Assembly: GCA_900473175.1 (NCBI GenBank)
Contig: UCKM01000019.1
Span: 22,049-86,048 of the forward strand
Reading direction: 5' to 3'
DNA: 64,000 bases
Source: Hyphomicrobiales bacterium
GTDB lineage: Bacteria > Pseudomonadota > Alphaproteobacteria > Rhizobiales > Rhizobiaceae
Shown: piece by piece, positions 16,073-57,583 of the stretch
How positions within the stretch are numbered: position 1 is the stretch's first letter
How the letters are laid out: the number at the start of each line of letters is the position of its first letter
The notes under the pieces: generated by a model
Told to the model about the DNA's origin: nothing
The model's input: the letters and a program-made list of their open reading frames with translations, nothing else
The model's database searches: none
Program-made: the position numbers and the translations under genes

Positions 16073-16160
<88 letters not shown>

Positions 16161-16173
<13 letters not shown>

Positions 16174-31566: not shown

Positions 31567-31911
31567 TTAAAGCGCGGACGCTGAGCGCCACAGGTCGTCT
31601 ACGTCTGTAGGTGACATGCCATACATCGAGCCGAACGCGTCGGTCAGAGGATGTGCCCGCTCGAAAGACGTGGCACCTGCCAGCAACATCCTTGCAGGGA
31701 ACTGTTGTGCCGGTGGAAGCTGATCAATGAACGTGGTGAGTGCTGCGGGCAGCGTCCCAATTTGAACCGCCGCCAATGCGTCAACCTCGGTAATCAATCC
31801 AGCAACGGCAAGCTGTTGGAAGAACTGACGGTCACTGATCGTTTCCGGGACGGCCACGGGTTCAGTGTACGCCGGAATTACGTTGCCTTCATCTTCCCAT
31901 TTCGCAATCAA
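31567..31911 (-). CDS. Conserved phage protein downstream of capsid
   Basis: 114 residues: SDRQFFQQLAVAGLITEVDA, then LTTFIDQLPPAQQFPARMLL, GATSFERAHPLTDA. Proteins of this pattern follow capsid genes in rhizobial prophages; function unknown. The start is a TTG overlapping the capsid stop (TTGA), because the only ATG (31977) would lie well inside the capsid gene. Confidence 0.65.
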   Translation of the reverse strand: MIAKWEDEGNVIPAYTEPVAVPETISDRQFFQQLAVAGLITEVDALAAVQIGTLPAALTTFIDQLPPAQQFPARMLLAGATSFERAHPLTDAFGSMYGMSPTDVDDLWRSASAL

Positions 31912-33845
31912 CTGGCGGTGACGGTTGCCCAGTTGATGAACCGTTCCGCGCGGATGCCGACCATATTGTGCTGCCACAGCGAGACCATGACCGTCGCAGC
32001 TACAACGGGGCTGGTCGGTGCGCTGTCCATTTCCAGCGAAGCTTCGCGGGAAACATCGAGCATCACCTGTCCATCGTCGGCCAGAAGGATTTCCGGAGCC
32101 TTGGCGAGGATGATGCGCGATCCGGCGCCGACAAGCGGAGAACCGCTGCCCGGATTTGCCGGAACGTTCTCAGAGAGAACCACCGGAAGGCCGAAGAACG
32201 TGCCGCCGCTGGTGCCGTTGACTGCCAGACCGGGGAATTCCGGCTGACCAAGCGGGTTGAGCATCAGAGCGAGGCCGAGAGCCTGCGTCTCCGTCATGAT
32301 GAACACTGCACCGGCAAGCGACATGTTTGCAGCCAGGAACTTGGCAAACAGCTTCTTAACGTCCGCGCGGACAGCATCGGCGTCCGTGCCGCTGGCAACC
32401 ACCGGAGTGACGCCATTGGTGATGGATGCAGGCGACACGCCTTCCGACACCGCCTTTGCGGGATCAACGAAGTCCTTGTCCATCGTCTGAACGATCGTGT
32501 TGATCAGGTCCTGGCGCACCAGGGCCTCAGCCGAAGGATTTGAAAAGCGGACCAGTTCATCGGTCAGGACGACAATGCCGGCAAGTTTGGCAAAACCAAG
32601 CGTGATTTGGTCGAACGCGAGTTCGCTGACCGGCTTCGGCTTCCCTTCGCCCACCCACTGCGCAGCAGCGCCGGCAGTCTGGCGAGGAATTTTGATGTTG
32701 AACGGAACGCGGCGAAGGCCGGGAATGCGACCGATGATCGTCTGCGGACGCAACAGATCGACGAATTCAGAAGCCATGTTCTGATATTCAACAAGCGGCT
32801 TGGCCCAATCGGCATCAGTCGTCGTGCCGGCGGCAACCGCCGCTTTCAGGATGGTCTCGACCTCGGGTGTATCGCCCCAAGCCTTAGCCACCTCGGCAGC
32901 CTGCATGAGATTGCCCTTGCCCCGGGCCAGAGCAATGGCATATCGCGTGAACGCCGTACCCTTCGGCAAGACCGTCTTTGCCACAGCGGGGACTGCACCG
33001 CCGCCTCGAACGTCGGAGCCAGACTGCTGGTCCTTTACGCCATCGACTGGCCTCGCCTTGGCTGCATTGGCCTTTTCGAGGGCCGCTAGGCGTACGAGGT
33101 GAGCGTCGATCGACTTTACTTCGGCTTCTAGGCCATCGTATTCCTCGGTCTGCTCGGCATCGAGGGTCACGCCCTCTTGGGCCGCAGCATTCATCAGTTC
33201 TTCCATGCGCGCCGACTTGGCGACACGGGTTGCTTCAAACGAAGCGATCTGTTCGGCAATGGTTTTCATTGCTTTCCCTTTCTTCGGGTCTGGTGTGATG
33301 GTTTTGACAACTTTTCCCGAACCGCCGGGCTTTACAGGTCGGTCGCTGTCCTTCGGCTCATTGCCTGTCGCGGCGAGCACAGGGGCATCAATCGACTTGA
33401 TCAGTGAAATGGTGGCGTCGGCATTGGCCGGGATCGTCACCAGAGAGAGTTCGTAAACCTCGGATTTGACAAAGCGGATGCCGCCGTCATCGAGGAATGC
33501 ATATTCAATCGCACGGAAGCCAATCGACACCGCAGCGACCAATCCGGCCTTGACCGACTGCCAAGCCTCGTCGACGCGATCCTTTAGCGCACCGGGCTCG
33601 TCGATCGTCGGAAGTTCAGCCTCGAACGTGATGCCGTCCTTTGTCGGCTTGTCGAACTTGACCAGGCCGACTGGCTTGTCAGCCTTGTGCGCCCAAAGGA
33701 GAGGCATAGGGTTCTTGAACTGGACACCGAGGGGTTCGACGATATCGCCCACACGGTCAGGGCTTGGTGTCGTGGCGGTGCCGCGTATGACGCGACGGTC
33801 TTCATCGACCGCTTTCACGGTCATGATGGAATAAGCACGGTTCAT
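31908..33845 (-). CDS. Fused HK97-type prohead protease and major capsid protein
   Basis: 645 residues from MNRAYSIMTVKAV. Residues about 1-175 form the S78-type prohead protease, with the His in PLLWAHKADKPVG and Ser in VSIGFRAIEY. A linker with helical delta-like scaffold region (about 225-290, EQIASFEATRVAKSARMEEL) leads to the HK97 capsid fold (about 330-645, TIIGRIPGLRRVPFNI). Protease and capsid are usually separate genes; here they are one continuous frame, so self-cleavage after assembly is expected. A longer frame to 34031 would overlap terminase and is rejected. Confidence 0.92.
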   Translation of the reverse strand: MNRAYSIMTVKAVDEDRRVIRGTATTPSPDRVGDIVEPLGVQFKNPMPLLWAHKADKPVGLVKFDKPTKDGITFEAELPTIDEPGALKDRVDEAWQSVKAGLVAAVSIGFRAIEYAFLDDGGIRFVKSEVYELSLVTIPANADATISLIKSIDAPVLAATGNEPKDSDRPVKPGGSGKVVKTITPDPKKGKAMKTIAEQIASFEATRVAKSARMEELMNAAAQEGVTLDAEQTEEYDGLEAEVKSIDAHLVRLAALEKANAAKARPVDGVKDQQSGSDVRGGGAVPAVAKTVLPKGTAFTRYAIALARGKGNLMQAAEVAKAWGDTPEVETILKAAVAAGTTTDADWAKPLVEYQNMASEFVDLLRPQTIIGRIPGLRRVPFNIKIPRQTAGAAAQWVGEGKPKPVSELAFDQITLGFAKLAGIVVLTDELVRFSNPSAEALVRQDLINTIVQTMDKDFVDPAKAVSEGVSPASITNGVTPVVASGTDADAVRADVKKLFAKFLAANMSLAGAVFIMTETQALGLALMLNPLGQPEFPGLAVNGTSGGTFFGLPVVLSENVPANPGSGSPLVGAGSRIILAKAPEILLADDGQVMLDVSREASLEMDSAPTSPVVAATVMVSLWQHNMVGIRAERFINWATVTAS

Positions 33846-33856
33846 TTGGGTATCTC

Positions 33857-35530
33857 CTAGGCGGCAAAGATCATCTGGTAGCTCGGCTCTCGCTTCACTT
33901 CCGGATTCCTGCTCATCACTGTCACGGCGTCGAACAGCGCCATCACCGGGTCGATCTTGGCATCGCCGGCGTTCTGTTTCGTCGCGCGAATTGCGGTTGC
34001 GGTCGGCTCGATTTTGAGGTTGCCGACACACCAGTTCATCAGCGCCGAGCCTGAATGAAGCAGCGTGCCGTTCGTCAGCTTCCGCTCTGTCGTCTTGATC
34101 GCGTTCATCATGGCGTAGCCTTGCGGCGCGCCGATAATGTTCTTGGCCTCGTCGTTGACGCCGATCTCATCGAGGGCATCGACGAGCTCGCCGAGGCCAG
34201 CAGGATCGACCGCCACCGCGGCGAGGAGGTTCCGGTCCTTGATGTCCTGAATGATCTCGACGATCTCGGATAGGTCGTCCAGCTTGTCATCAACGATCGT
34301 CAGCTCGCCGGCCTTCTCAAAGTCCCGAAGCTTCGAAGCAATGGACTTGCGCCGATCCAGCACGCCGATGTGGCACCAAGCATGAGACCAACAGAGCCAA
34401 TCCTTTGTCACGCGATGGCGCCCGACGATGGTCAGGCCGAACAGATCGTCAAGGCCACCGCCGTCAACGCCCGGCACGATCACCTCACACACTTCCAGAA
34501 CGTGATCGAGGGTGATGGCCTTATCCGCCCTCGCCTCCCAGAAATCAGCGCCCGGCCACCGGTTGGCCCGCAGGTTCATCCCGATTTCTATGTTCAGGTG
34601 CTTGGCGAGGAACGTCCGCTTTGTATCGCCGGCGCCGTTCAGCTCCTTGACCATCTCCTCCTCAAGCCATTCTTGGCTCACGGAGCGCCCGAGATTGGGG
34701 TTGGTGATGTAGAAATTGTCAGGATCGAGGAATGTTTCGGCCTCGACCATGGCCTTGGGAAACTCGTAAAGCACGCCGAGGGTCTTCCGATCAGGGATTT
34801 TCCCGTCACGAACGTCTCGAAAATAGTCCAGTTTCGCCTTGAATACACCCGCCGGCGGCGCGTCTGATTGCGTCGATGGGTATATGACAAACCCTTCCGG
34901 CCTTGATACGAGACCGCCGGTCGCCTCCCGCAGCATCGCGTCGGCGTTCGACTTCTTGCCGAACAGCCAAAGCTCGTCGACAAGCACGAACGCAGCTTTT
35001 TTGCCGCCGACCGTATCAGTGTCGGCCGCGACAACCTTGAGAGTCGCCTTCGTCAACCGGTGGGTTATCTGGCGAAAGTTGTCCTGAATGTGCAGCAAAT
35101 CCGTCAACTCGGGATCCGCTCGCACCATGTCGGCCGCGGGCTTGTAGCTGTTGTTGGCAACCTCAAGGGTCGGCGCGAGGATGAGCAACTCGCAGGAATG
35201 CCGCCAATTGCGGATCAGGGCCGTGATCATAATCCCGGCGGCGATCGTCGACTTGCTGTTCTTCTTGCTGATGAGAAGGAAGAATTCACGAATATGCCGC
35301 TTCGCCGCCTCGTGATCGTACGCTCCGAAGATGGCCTGAACGAAGTCGAACACCCACTCCTCACAAGCCTCGCCGAACGTCGGCTGACCGGGTGCATCGA
35401 CAATCTTGAGCGATTTGAACACCGCAAGCGCTGCTTCCGCCTCATCGGGGAACAGCGGGTCGAACTGTATGAGCGACTGTCCGGCAACGATGCGCTTCTC
35501 CCAGTCGAGACAGCTAGTGGTCCATTCCAT
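33857..35530 (-). CDS. Phage terminase large subunit (HK97/Terminase_1 type)
   Basis: 557 residues. The ATPase has the Walker A-like loop ISKKNSKST (about 88-96) and Walker B FVLVDELW (about 181-188). The C-terminal nuclease domain has acidic residues in [11 protein letters not shown] (about 349-359), [10 protein letters not shown] and the late ASP motif PVMALFDAV. It packages DNA into proheads. The ATG overlaps the TerS stop; a GTG one codon earlier is possible. The gene is followed directly by protease-capsid; the portal gene normally found between them is absent. Confidence 0.93.
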
Positions 35531-51098: not shown

Positions 51099-51509
51099 TT
51101 ACGCCGCAGGAGTGAGTTGTTTGGGTTCGAACTCCACCGGCGTCATGCGTCCGAACAGTTCCATCAGTGCAAGGACTTTGCCAGCTTTCGTCACCTCGTC
51201 CACAACCCCGCTGAACGTTGCGAATGGGCTTGCCCGATCGGTGACAAAAACCATAGTCCCGGTCAGATATCGCATCGCTGTGGTTTCTTTCTCGGTCTTT
51301 GCCTCTTCCTTCCGGTGGACCCGCGCGGCCCGCGTCTCGTCGAATTTCATGTCCATCTCAGCCATGAATATCTTCTCAACGTCCTTTGCCATCACCCGGA
51401 TCGGACGTCCATCGACACCCAGGATGCATTCAACTCCATCCTGCTTGTCTACCCGATAGAAATTCTTGCCATCTGGCGGAAACACTGGCATTGCGGGAGC
51501 GGAACTCAT
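51099..51509 (-). CDS. NusG-like KOW-domain protein of the phage early operon
   Basis: 136 residues. The C-terminal about 55 residues match the NusG/Spt5 KOW module: GTMVFVTDRASPFATFSGVV then VDEV and LFGRMTPVEFEPKQL. The N-terminal about 70 residues do not look like the NGN domain that binds RNA polymerase in NusG. Its ATG overlaps the DpdA stop (ATGA). It is the last gene of the leftward early operon, directly facing the cargo. A likely role is antitermination or control of transcription of downstream phage genes (inference). Confidence 0.65.
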   Translation of the reverse strand: MSSAPAMPVFPPDGKNFYRVDKQDGVECILGVDGRPIRVMAKDVEKIFMAEMDMKFDETRAARVHRKEEAKTEKETTAMRYLTGTMVFVTDRASPFATFSGVVDEVTKAGKVLALMELFGRMTPVEFEPKQLTPAA

Positions 51510-52276
51510 GCGGCAATCCTCCATAGAGGCAGAGGTAACTGCCATGCTTCAAATGCGCGGGAAGCAGCCCCCTGGACGCGATCCGCGAAGGCTTTTGCTT
51601 CTTTCCATGAATTGCCGTCCCTGCCCTGTTTGCGAGCTGCAAACGACCAAGCCATGCTGTCGGCGCTATGGAGCATCGATCGAACGCCGGGATGAAGTAG
51701 AGAAGTTTGCTTGATACCGAATCCATGCAAACGCAGATCAGGGCGAACGGCATGAATCGCGGAGAGAACCGCAACAATCTTTTCCGGGTCGCCGTTCCGC
51801 TTACACACGGATCCTACGCCTACCCACATTCCTTGGTGAAGGCGGTCACCATAGTCACGAACATGCTTCGCATAGTCACTCGGCGCGAAACCTTGCAGGA
51901 CCGGCATGATAGGAAAAGGTAGATCTTGCGCAATTAAGTCGTCATATCGCTCAATCGTCAGGCGTTGATGGTCCTCGACCGTTTGACCGGTCTTCGCAAG
52001 CATGAAGGGTTCGCACATGTAATCCTGAGCGACAGTCGCTGATATCGACACAACGCCTGATGAGTGGATGCGCCGAAGCTCATCGGCATATTCTTTGACG
52101 CTGTGTCGGTATCCGCCGAATAGATTGATTTCGGTGAAGGCTCCGCTGTCCACCAATACGTCGGCGCAGTCGATTGGCTTCTTCCGTCCTCGGAGCCGTC
52201 GCACGCTGATGCATGCACGATCGAAGTTCAAGGCGTCGCCTGGCTGGTGCAAACCTACGTAGAAGCGCACACTCAT
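51506..52276 (-). CDS. dpdA: DpdA-like 7-deazapurine DNA transglycosylase (TGT family)
   Basis: 256 residues. TGT-superfamily features: VLVDSGAFTEI (the DSG catalytic Asp region), the MPVLQGF strand, and VGVGSVCKRNG matching the GGxG-type substrate loop, then LHGFGIKQ. It lacks the zinc-binding Cys cluster of tRNA-guanine transglycosylases, as in phage DpdA enzymes that insert preQ0-type bases into DNA. No deazaguanine synthesis genes are in the element, so host preQ0 would be the source. Coupled by ATGA overlaps on both sides. Confidence 0.8.
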   Translation of the reverse strand: MSVRFYVGLHQPGDALNFDRACISVRRLRGRKKPIDCADVLVDSGAFTEINLFGGYRHSVKEYADELRRIHSSGVVSISATVAQDYMCEPFMLAKTGQTVEDHQRLTIERYDDLIAQDLPFPIMPVLQGFAPSDYAKHVRDYGDRLHQGMWVGVGSVCKRNGDPEKIVAVLSAIHAVRPDLRLHGFGIKQTSLLHPGVRSMLHSADSMAWSFAARKQGRDGNSWKEAKAFADRVQGAASRAFEAWQLPLPLWRIAA

Positions 52277-52635
52277 GACTTCACCAAAACGATGTCGTGG
52301 CCGAACACTGCTCGGAACAACTTCGCCTTTATCTTGAAATCCTTGGTCTCGATGCCCTTCACGTCCTCTGTGACGCGCTTTTTCGAATGGACGTGCCAAT
52401 ACCGGAAGTCGCCAATGTAGGTGCAGACCTGAACGCCGTTGACGGTGAGTTTCACCTTCGGCTGAAGCTCCAATTCGGCGATTTCGCCAGCGGCCTGCAA
52501 CAGCTTCAGTTGGCAATAGCGCTTGCCCTCCGCCCTGCTGTCGAAACGGATTCCATCAATCCAAACGGGCTCGTTGCCGTATTTGCTCGGCTTGCTCTGC
52601 GTCATCGCGCGAAACTCGGTGGCGCTCATCCTCAT
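52273..52635 (-). CDS. DUF1064 phage nuclease-like protein
   Basis: 120 residues. DUF1064 pattern: YGNEPVWIDGIRFDSRAEGKRY (the S-x-x-E of a PD-(D/E)xK-like fold), ELQPKVKLTVNGVQVCTYIGDF (Asp) and TEDVKGIETKDFKIKAKLF (E/K). Typical of Holliday-junction-resolvase-like phage endonucleases. The start at 52635 overlaps the upstream stop (ATGA). Confidence 0.82.
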   Translation of the reverse strand: MRMSATEFRAMTQSKPSKYGNEPVWIDGIRFDSRAEGKRYCQLKLLQAAGEIAELELQPKVKLTVNGVQVCTYIGDFRYWHVHSKKRVTEDVKGIETKDFKIKAKLFRAVFGHDIVLVKS

Positions 52636-55560: not shown

Positions 55561-55600
55561 TGTAGCGATTATAGCAACAAATGCAAGCCATAATGTAGCG
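55561..55600. promoter_or_regulatory. CI/Cro operators
   Basis: TGTAGCGATTATAGCAACA (55561-55579) and TGTAGCG (55594-55600), between divergent cro-like and CI-like genes. The second site abuts the repressor start codon. They share the half-site of the palindrome at 56436. Confidence 0.65.
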
Positions 55601-55603
55601 AAT

Positions 55604-56218
55604 ATGGAAAAAGACAGTTTTGTGAGGAACAGCTATGAATTCCATATGTTGTCAGAATGGCTACAAACTGCGCTAAATGATTCTGGTGTATCGCAATCTG
55701 AGCTTGCTCGCTTGCTGACCGAACGGCTTGCCCGTTCTGTTGATCGTGCCGCCGTGAACAAGATGCTCAAGGGCACGCGCACGATTTCCGGCGAAGAGCT
55801 TCTGGCCATAGAAGCTATAACCGGCACCACCGCGCCTAAAGAGCTCCATGTCCCACTGAAGGGGAAGGTAGGCGCAGGCGCGGCGGTCTTTGCGATTGAT
55901 GATGGCGGCGACGATACGGTGGAAGCACCTGCCGATGCCCGGCATGGCACCGTAGCAGTACAAGTGTCTGGAGACTCGATGTTTCCCGCTTATGAAGAAG
56001 GCACCATACTATACTACTCAAGACTGCTGCCCCCTTCTGAGCTTGTAAACAAGCGGGCTGTTGTACAGTTGGGCGATGGACGCATCTTCGTGAAGATCGT
56101 TCGGCCAGGAGCCGATGCGGCAACGTGGACGCTCACAAGCATCAACGGTCAATATGCCGATATGATGGATCAAGTAGTCGAATGGGCCGCGCCGATTGAT
56201 TGGATAAAACCCCGATAA
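55604..56218 (+). CDS. CI/LexA-type repressor (XRE HTH + S24 peptidase)
   Basis: 204 residues. An N-terminal HTH (GVSQSELARLLTERLARSVD) and C-terminal S24 peptidase domain with the nucleophile Ser in VSGDSMFPAYEEG (about 126) and the catalytic Lys in GRIFVKIV (about 165). The cleavage-region dipeptide VGAGA is near residue 88. RecA-stimulated self-cleavage at DNA damage is expected, inducing the element. Confidence 0.9.
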   Translation: MEKDSFVRNSYEFHMLSEWLQTALNDSGVSQSELARLLTERLARSVDRAAVNKMLKGTRTISGEELLAIEAITGTTAPKELHVPLKGKVGAGAAVFAIDDGGDDTVEAPADARHGTVAVQVSGDSMFPAYEEGTILYYSRLLPPSELVNKRAVVQLGDGRIFVKIVRPGADAATWTLTSINGQYADMMDQVVEWAAPIDWIKPR

Positions 56219-56410: not shown

Positions 56411-56454
56411 TATCGCTACAATCTGATTGACACACTGTAGCGATATACGCTACA
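56411..56454. promoter_or_regulatory. Perfect CI-type operator palindrome upstream of integrase-derived genes
   Basis: TGTAGCGATATACGCTACA (56436-56454) is a perfect 19-bp palindrome with the same half-sites as 55561 and 55594; a further half-site TATCGCTACA is at 56411-56420. Confidence 0.7.
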
Positions 56455-56482
56455 TTGCATTCATCGAACAAGGATGGATGCA

Positions 56483-56971
56483 ATGAACATCGTCAATCAC
56501 GAATTCAAAACCTCTGATCAGATTGCGACCGAAACCGGTTTCACGATTGAGGCCCTTGGCGATGCTCTCCGTCAGTTCCAAGACACCAATTCCAAGCACT
56601 ATGCCTGCGAGGCAGCCAAGGAAGGCAGAGGTTCTTTCTGGGCGCGTACCAGTTACGGCAACACCGCATCTTCGCTCTTCGTCGATCATGCGAACCTGAT
56701 AGGCGATCTGGAAACAGCAATCGCACTGGCAAAGCTGCCGCGCGTCAAGGTCAGCAATTTCCGCTTTCACGACACCAGGCACACGGCAGCGACAAGGATT
56801 TTGCGCGTGAGCAATCTGCGCGTTGCGCAAAAGCTGCTTGGCCATGAAGACATCAAGACCACCACGAAATATGCTCATGCAATGGTCGAGGACATCAGAA
56901 ACGGTCTCGATGCAATGAGTCCCACGGAAAGCGCTTTGCCTGAGAACCCAACGAGAAAGTCTAAAGGATGA
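56483..56971 (+). pseudogene. Chimeric ORF: phage protein N-terminus fused to integrase C-terminus
   Basis: 162 residues. The first about 75 (MNIVNHEFKTSDQIATETGF...) look like an unrelated phage protein. From about residue 87 the sequence is tyrosine recombinase C-terminus: FRFHDTRHTAATR (HxxR, catalytic His and Arg), LLGHEDIKTTTKYAH (catalytic His and Tyr). The arm-binding domain and first catalytic Arg are missing, so strand exchange is unlikely. The end encodes -SPTE- via AGTCCCACGGAAA (56918-56930). Confidence 0.8.
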
Positions 56972-57510
56972 GCCTTTATAAACGGTCGGATAGTGATTTT
57001 TACAGCTACGATTTTCAGTTAGATGGAAGGCGTTATTCTGGCTCTACAGGGACCGATGATCTGCAACAGGCGCAGCGGTTTGAGCAGACTATGCGAAATG
57101 ACGCAAACGGCGTCAGCATCCTTTGCCGATCTGTCATCAGAAGAGCGGCACGCAAGCTACCCACAACGATACGATCCAACAGCGGTTATGTTTACATGAT
57201 CCGAAGCGGGTATTTCATTAAGATTGGGCATTCCAACGACCCGGCCAGCCGACTGAAATCTATCAGCACAGCAACACCTGACGATTGTGAGGTTCTGTTC
57301 TGCATACCGGGCGACGTGAAATTGGAACGCCGGTTGCACACTGAGTTCGCGGCCTGCCACTATAAGAAGGAATGGTTCTTCCTTTGCGGCAAGCTCAAGC
57401 AGTTTGTTGATGAGTTCGAAGTGGCGGATGCAAAAAGTCCCACGGAAATCACTGTGAGACAGGGTGACGATCACCTTAAACCATTACAATTGCTTGAAAA
57501 TTCGGAGTGA
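56968..57510 (+). pseudogene. Chimeric ORF: integrase N-terminus fused to GIY-YIG/MUG113 domain
   Basis: 180 residues. Residues 1-45 (MSLYKRSDSDFYSYDFQLDG, RRYSGSTGTDDL) are the arm-binding N-terminus of a phage tyrosine integrase. From about residue 72, GYVYMIRSGYFIKIGHSNDP and RLHTEFAACHYKKEWF is a MUG113/T5orf172 GIY-YIG nuclease-like domain. It overlaps the preceding ORF by four bases and ends just before attR. The tail has -SPTE- encoded by the same 13-bp repeat (57436-57448). Confidence 0.8.
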
Positions 57511-57520
57511 GGCTCTTTTT

Positions 57521-57583
57521 CCCCCAGTCAAGTGCGCTACCGGGCTGCGCTACACTCCGAACCGGGGAAAGCCGTAGATTACT
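57521..57583. repeat. attR: half tRNA-Pro with original upstream promoter
   Basis: Second copy of the attachment repeat. The 3' half of the tRNA is replaced by element sequence to the left. The original minus-strand promoter remains on the right (TTGCGC 57595-57600, TACGGC 57571-57576), so transcription from it now runs into the integrase-derived genes antisense. Confidence 0.93.

Follow-up and report, generated by a model that had tools for sequence, protein, structure and literature searches.

An integrase arm-binding domain joined to a GIY-YIG nuclease domain beside an integrase remnant in a decayed-looking prophage

The described system closest to the one presented here is Odn (Gp88), the origin-directed nuclease of phage ICP1, in which a T5orf172 nuclease joined to a RepA_N domain cuts the origin of a satellite (PMC8263062, PMC10448857), the RepA_N domain being 42% identical to that of the satellite donor (PMC8263062). 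Here we describe two overlapping open reading frames (ORFs) in a stretch of 64,000 nucleotides from a Hyphomicrobiales bacterium of the Rhizobiaceae (GCA_900473175.1, contig UCKM01000019.1, positions 22,049 to 86,048), which we refer to as the window. They lie at the right end of what looks like a decayed prophage inserted in tRNA-Pro(GGG), between two 53-bp repeats. The first, ORF1, looks like a deletion scar joining a phage gene, here called X, to the 3' end of a tyrosine integrase gene. The second, ORF2, carries an integrase arm-binding domain followed by a GIY-YIG nuclease domain, and is probably either a member of a class of integrase-linked genes present at three other loci or a look-alike with the same plan. 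We lean slightly towards reading the pair as this deletion scar beside a separate, integrase-linked gene for a nuclease directed to arm-type sites.

Two reading frames of probably different origin

The first-pass annotation of the window had taken the pair for one permuted integrase gene, with its C-terminal half ahead of its N-terminal piece. ORF1 is open from an ATG at 56474 to 56971; the end had been placed correctly, while the start given earlier, 56483, is an in-frame ATG further on. The ORF2 frame spans 56968 to 57510, and the four-base overlap that had been reported between the two is ATGA. The matches to integrase halves in both frames are not chance. Over residues 1-88, ORF1 is 68-75% identical to X in several relatives (L050/L081/L147, L051, L146, L149, L150 and L151), and 56% and 42% identical to X of L152 and L153, respectively. 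The Pfam Phage_integrase end then matches residues 94-137 (45.1 bits, cut-off 27.1), and residues ~88-153 share 91% identity over 66 residues with the intact 380-amino-acid (aa) integrase of L052. These intact homologues place the switch from X to integrase at residue ~88, and the foreign N-terminus already noticed ahead of the catalytic region is that of X.

The X protein has 142-158 aa, and its gene was present in eight of the 20 genomes of our genus sample, both numbers including the source genome. It was not seen running into an integrase at any other X locus compared. X is apparently the first gene of a repressor-controlled early operon. In L051 it heads a rightward run of ORFs, and the L051 repressor is 90% identical over 219 residues to the repressor in the window. 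The operator-like word TGTAGCGA forms a pair 62 and 39 bp ahead of X in L051, and 61 and 38 bp ahead of ORF1, with more copies at 55561 and 55594; the pair is also present in L151, and the word was not found at the X loci L146, L147, L149, L150 and L152. One genome, G202, has an intact X and an intact integrase on the same strand, ~17 kb apart, with the integrase adjoining a tRNA-Pro-like core. As no other relative was seen to have the two together, we infer the extent of the deletion from it: a deletion or an equivalent recombination would have run from inside X through the early operon and taken the first ~300 integrase codons as well. It would also have placed the nuclease gene directly behind the early-operon operator region, where it now lies.

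Together the two frames retain only the last ~75 (ORF1) and the first ~50 (ORF2) of the ~380 residues of a functional tyrosine integrase. The core-binding domain and the first catalytic Arg are absent from both, in agreement with the annotated loss of the integrase middle, and ORF1 should be unable to recombine DNA because of these missing domains. We checked 12 other PF00589 matches in the source genome and did not find an intact integrase of ORF1's family among them; the closest is only 42% identical to ORF1 over 53 residues, hence no intact sister integrase is seen. The expectation that the element should be unable to excise itself therefore stands.

Residues 1-50 of ORF2 share 36-50% identity with ten integrase N-termini, although residues 1-60 have no Pfam match, and the intact integrase ORFs that match ORF2 residues 1-~48 also match ORF1 residues ~88-153. 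Further on, residues 85-139 match MUG113 (45.3 bits, cut-off 22.3) and, more weakly, T5orf172 (32.2 bits, cut-off 20). Both scores exceed the Pfam cut-offs and the signature residues are kept, which makes ORF2 a predicted GIY-YIG nuclease and bears out its annotation as an arm-binding N-terminus leading into such a domain. The permuted gene itself is not supported: a deletion between X and an integrase explains ORF1, and ORF2 fits a separate gene found behind intact integrases at three loci. Judging by these sequence comparisons, ORF2 probably does not represent the lost front part of ORF1's integrase. The finding that would count against a permuted gene, namely both proteins kept as functional genes in relatives, was made for the plan of ORF2, at the three loci, and not for ORF1. 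The first-pass annotation is thus confirmed in what it observed and supported only in part, and mostly not, in how it interpreted this.

Integrase-linked genes of the same plan

Using the integrase N-domain as a query, we recovered 54 loci from IMG/VR. All but one have a single integrase ORF (partial in L263); the exception, L228, has two. There, the stop of an intact 380-aa integrase is overlapped (GTGA) by the gene of a 239-aa protein that combines an arm domain with a GIY-YIG domain. Searching with the L228 protein and with the N-domain revealed two further cases: L278, with a 390-aa integrase and a nuclease 63% identical to that of L228 in the best segment, and L312, with a 381-aa integrase and an ATGA overlap. 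The arm-type domain plus GIY-YIG architecture beside an integrase is therefore found at four loci, window included. The integrase stop overlaps are 4, 14 and 4 bp in L228, L278 and L312, and 4 bp in the window, where the integrase is truncated. Matches to the N-domain hidden Markov model (HMM) range from an E value of 2.9e-16 (L312) to 6.4e-19 (window), and the Pfam GIY-YIG match is above its cut-off in L312 and just under it in L228 and L278. In the one member modelled, L312, two domains of the predicted protein structure weakly resemble solved integrase arm domains. Downstream of the gene, the attachment (att) core follows after 10 bp in the window, and a tRNA half lies within ~40 bp in L278 and L312 (read by eye, as ARAGORN reports no whole tRNA there); the L228 contig ends at the stop.

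Arm-domain ORFs without a catalytic part occur at eight distinct places among the loci compared. Four are those with a GIY-YIG domain, and the others (L219, L263, L288 and L307) are broken or partial integrases. In L307 (4001-6524), a transposase-like ORF pair splits the integrase after the arm domain, leaving a 58-aa arm-domain ORF.

Among the matches listed, no full-length member was found in 397 genomes of the order (L228 protein as query) or in 367 genomes of the class (alignment of the three proteins as query). Each listed match is to one part of the protein (arm, middle or GIY-YIG), never to arm and nuclease together, and those to the GIY-YIG part are mostly in ORFs of ~600-700 aa. A search of 50,697 phage records gave no match, and 72,556 plasmid records gave two partial matches. 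Our searches of open-access papers listed none on GIY-YIG, MUG113 or T5orf172 joined to an integrase arm domain, which is weak evidence that the gene class is new. Separately, L302, L283, L285, L289 and L296 encode ~380-530-aa proteins whose N-terminal part is like the middle domain of the L228, L278 and L312 nucleases. No Pfam family exceeded its cut-off in the four of these that were scanned, and one of the proteins is encoded close to a tyrosine recombinase on a Bradyrhizobium plasmid.

The gene also appears to move on its own, since its similarities are discordant with those of the integrases. Between L228 and L278 the integrases are 36% identical and the nuclease genes 61%, whereas between L278 and L312 the values are 69% and 46%. 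Moreover, the nuclease gene is missing from L313, although its tRNA end is identical in kind to that of L312. A second GIY-YIG gene, of MUG113 type, lies upstream of an excisionase-like gene and the integrase in L312 (2102-2617; 39% identity to the ORF2 domain over 74 residues), so that GIY-YIG genes flank the L312 integrase on both sides. Similarly, a GIY-YIG match (E 0.001) lies immediately ahead of the integrase in Rhizobium phage RHph_I3_18 (L049).

Candidate target sites and possible functions

The motif [AG]GTCCCAC(GGAAA) occurs at 28 places between -150 and +200 of an integrase stop, and at 20 in all other sequence compared. By density, it is 31-fold enriched around integrase 3' ends and att, partly by choice because some of these loci served to pick the motif. 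It is found at 17 of 98 distinct integrases, eight of which have two copies 11-13 bp apart; in L052, L053, L054 and L082, two copies 12 bp apart lie within the integrase end. From this position and spacing, the motif looks like an arm-type site. The window has two, at 56918 and 57436, and as they flank most of ORF2, its arm-domain and GIY-YIG part appears to sit between two sites. The predicted candidates for Odn-like cutting are AGTCCCAC beside att.

If ORF2 works as its domains suggest, the arm-type domain would guide the nuclease to the arm-type sites that adjoin attP in related phages. Cutting there would either copy the gene in (homing) or stop a rival's integration, as Odn does at origins. 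With such a nuclease, phages could compete for integration sites or use them to spread, and L312 and L313, which share an att, are natural examples with and without the gene, respectively. A more specific proposal, which we regard as unlikely, is that temperate phages carry att-directed nucleases with an integrase-type DNA-reading domain to cut the attP arms of rivals using the same tRNA, and that this element retained the weapon behind a repressor-controlled promoter region after losing its early operon and integrase.

Several observations weigh against an arm-site-directed nuclease of this class. The motif is missing at 81 of the 98 distinct integrases. The nuclease subtype of ORF2 (MUG113) differs from that of L228, L278 and L312, the middle DNA-binding-like domain of those three is absent, and the similarity of the ORF2 linker to theirs is not significant. 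The tail of ORF2 also copies an integrase end. Given the different subtype and the absent second domain, ORF2 may have arisen as a separate fusion with the same layout, or be debris.

Homing, a special case of the preferred explanation, is possible: genes of this class would cut the gene-free attP regions of co-infecting phages and be copied into them during repair, without benefiting the phage. The presence and absence of the gene at one att (L312 and L313) and the discordance with the integrases speak for homing, and phage homing genes often contain GIY-YIG/T5orf172 domains (PMC10448857). However, the discordance suits a domesticated weapon equally well, and the target site and its cleavage are predicted at most.

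Somewhat less probable, in our judgement, is that ORF2 is debris from a second att-end integrase, its middle replaced by an unrelated GIY-YIG domain through illegitimate recombination, with both products functionless. The tail matches intact integrase ends in its length, in its arm-type motif and in lying 10 bp from the core, the GIY-YIG subtype is unlike that of the other three loci, ORF2 is a singleton, and the adjoining integrase and early operon are lost. Yet the three other loci place an arm-domain/GIY-YIG gene likewise behind an intact integrase, and ORF2 keeps an open frame, its GIY-YIG signature residues and an ATGA overlap as in L312. The tail geometry may persist because the arm-type site and core are themselves functional DNA.

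It seems quite improbable that the arm-domain protein regulates its own integrase, holding the arm sites to aid excision or block integration, with GIY-YIG secondary. The overlap with the integrase gene does suggest co-translation and an arm domain is present, but the N-domains are only 52% (L228), 42% (L278) and 50% (L312) identical to those of their own integrases, and the L228 and L278 N-domains resemble one another more closely (66%). An assembly artefact in this draft (4.88 Mb, 45 contigs) is very improbable despite three foreign junctions inside 1 kb, as the two ORFs lie in the contig interior (78.5-79.6 kb), their frames stay open, the layout of the second gene recurs at other loci, and the att repeats and flanks are orderly.

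The prophage and its relation to known systems

Table 1. Features of the two ORFs and the surrounding prophage (window coordinates).
Feature	Position	Strand	Basis or remark
attL copy, 53-bp core	16111..16163	.	exact repeat of 57521-57573; 5' half of tRNA-Pro(GGG) and upstream bases
Complete tRNA-Pro(GGG), left end	16073..16149	-	ARAGORN
CI-like repressor (helix-turn-helix and S24 peptidase)	55604..56218	+	PF00717 32.2 bits, phrog_4
Operator-like repeats TGTAGCGA	56412..56454	56413 -, 56436 +	ahead of ORF1
ORF1 5' part, first 86-88 codons of X	56474..56737	+	identity to X
ORF1 3' part, last ~75 residues of tyrosine integrase (HxxR, H, Y region)	56738..56971	+	PF00589
Arm-type-site-like motif AGTCCCACGGAAA	56918..56930	+	inside ORF1 tail
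ORF2 N-terminus, integrase arm-binding domain	56968..57117	+	identity to integrases; N-domain HMM 6.4e-19
ORF2 GIY-YIG domain, MUG113/T5orf172 type	57172..57423	+	conserved Y, KIG, R, E, H, EWF kept
Second arm-type-site-like motif	57436..57448	+	~74 bp before ORF2 stop
attR copy, 53-bp core	57521..57573	.	10 bp past ORF2 stop

A 39-bp core occurs in two copies in the window. Since the att core corresponds to the 5' half of the tRNA, the restored tRNA at the left end takes this half, and the region upstream of it, from the element. Eight related genomes compared at the same tRNA have one tRNA-Pro(GGG) each (ARAGORN). In three of these (L197, L198 and L203), the window flanks match on opposite sides of the single tRNA, with ~5.8 kb of other sequence on its right side in L197; the remaining five match one flank only. 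We also examined 24 related integrases, three of which had no downstream sequence. At least 37 of the 39 core positions were matched within 400 bp of 11 of the 21 usable integrases, and in seven of the 11 the core is oriented as in the window and at most ~40 bp from the integrase stop. Many phages thus use or adjoin tRNA-Pro.

The 20 element proteins scanned include one prohead protease/capsid protein (31908-34031), a few others that are phage-like and many that are metabolic or signalling. Between the phage remnants, the region 16393-51000 encodes a sulfatase, a SRAP peptidase, an alpha/beta hydrolase, two metallo-beta-lactamase-fold proteins, an FAD-binding oxidase-like protein and two cyclase-domain proteins. 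The prophage early region encodes a DpdA-like protein of a DNA base modification family (51506-52516, minus strand; PF23859, 135 bits), with a relative in L149 at 83% identity.

Tyrosine integrases of Rhizobiales phages such as RHph_I3_18 supply the family of both the ORF1 C-terminus and the ORF2 N-terminus, and have the tRNA-Pro core beside the gene, as in the window; they differ in having the core-binding domain and first catalytic Arg that both ORFs lack. Free-standing phage GIY-YIG/T5orf172 homing endonucleases have in common with ORF2 and its counterparts the nuclease domain, presence or absence between relatives and independent movement. The partner domains named in the sections available to us are Zn-finger, NUMOD, HTH, RepA_N and AP2, with no integrase arm domain among them (PMC1564403, PMC10448857). 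Unlike Odn, ORF2 has an integrase arm domain, its gene lies next to att and overlaps that of an integrase, and its cleavage is only predicted. The two are alike in fusing a GIY-YIG-superfamily nuclease to the DNA-binding domain of a mobile element's site-binding protein, and their N-domains are comparably close to the donor (42% for Odn, 36-51% for ORF2 to integrases).
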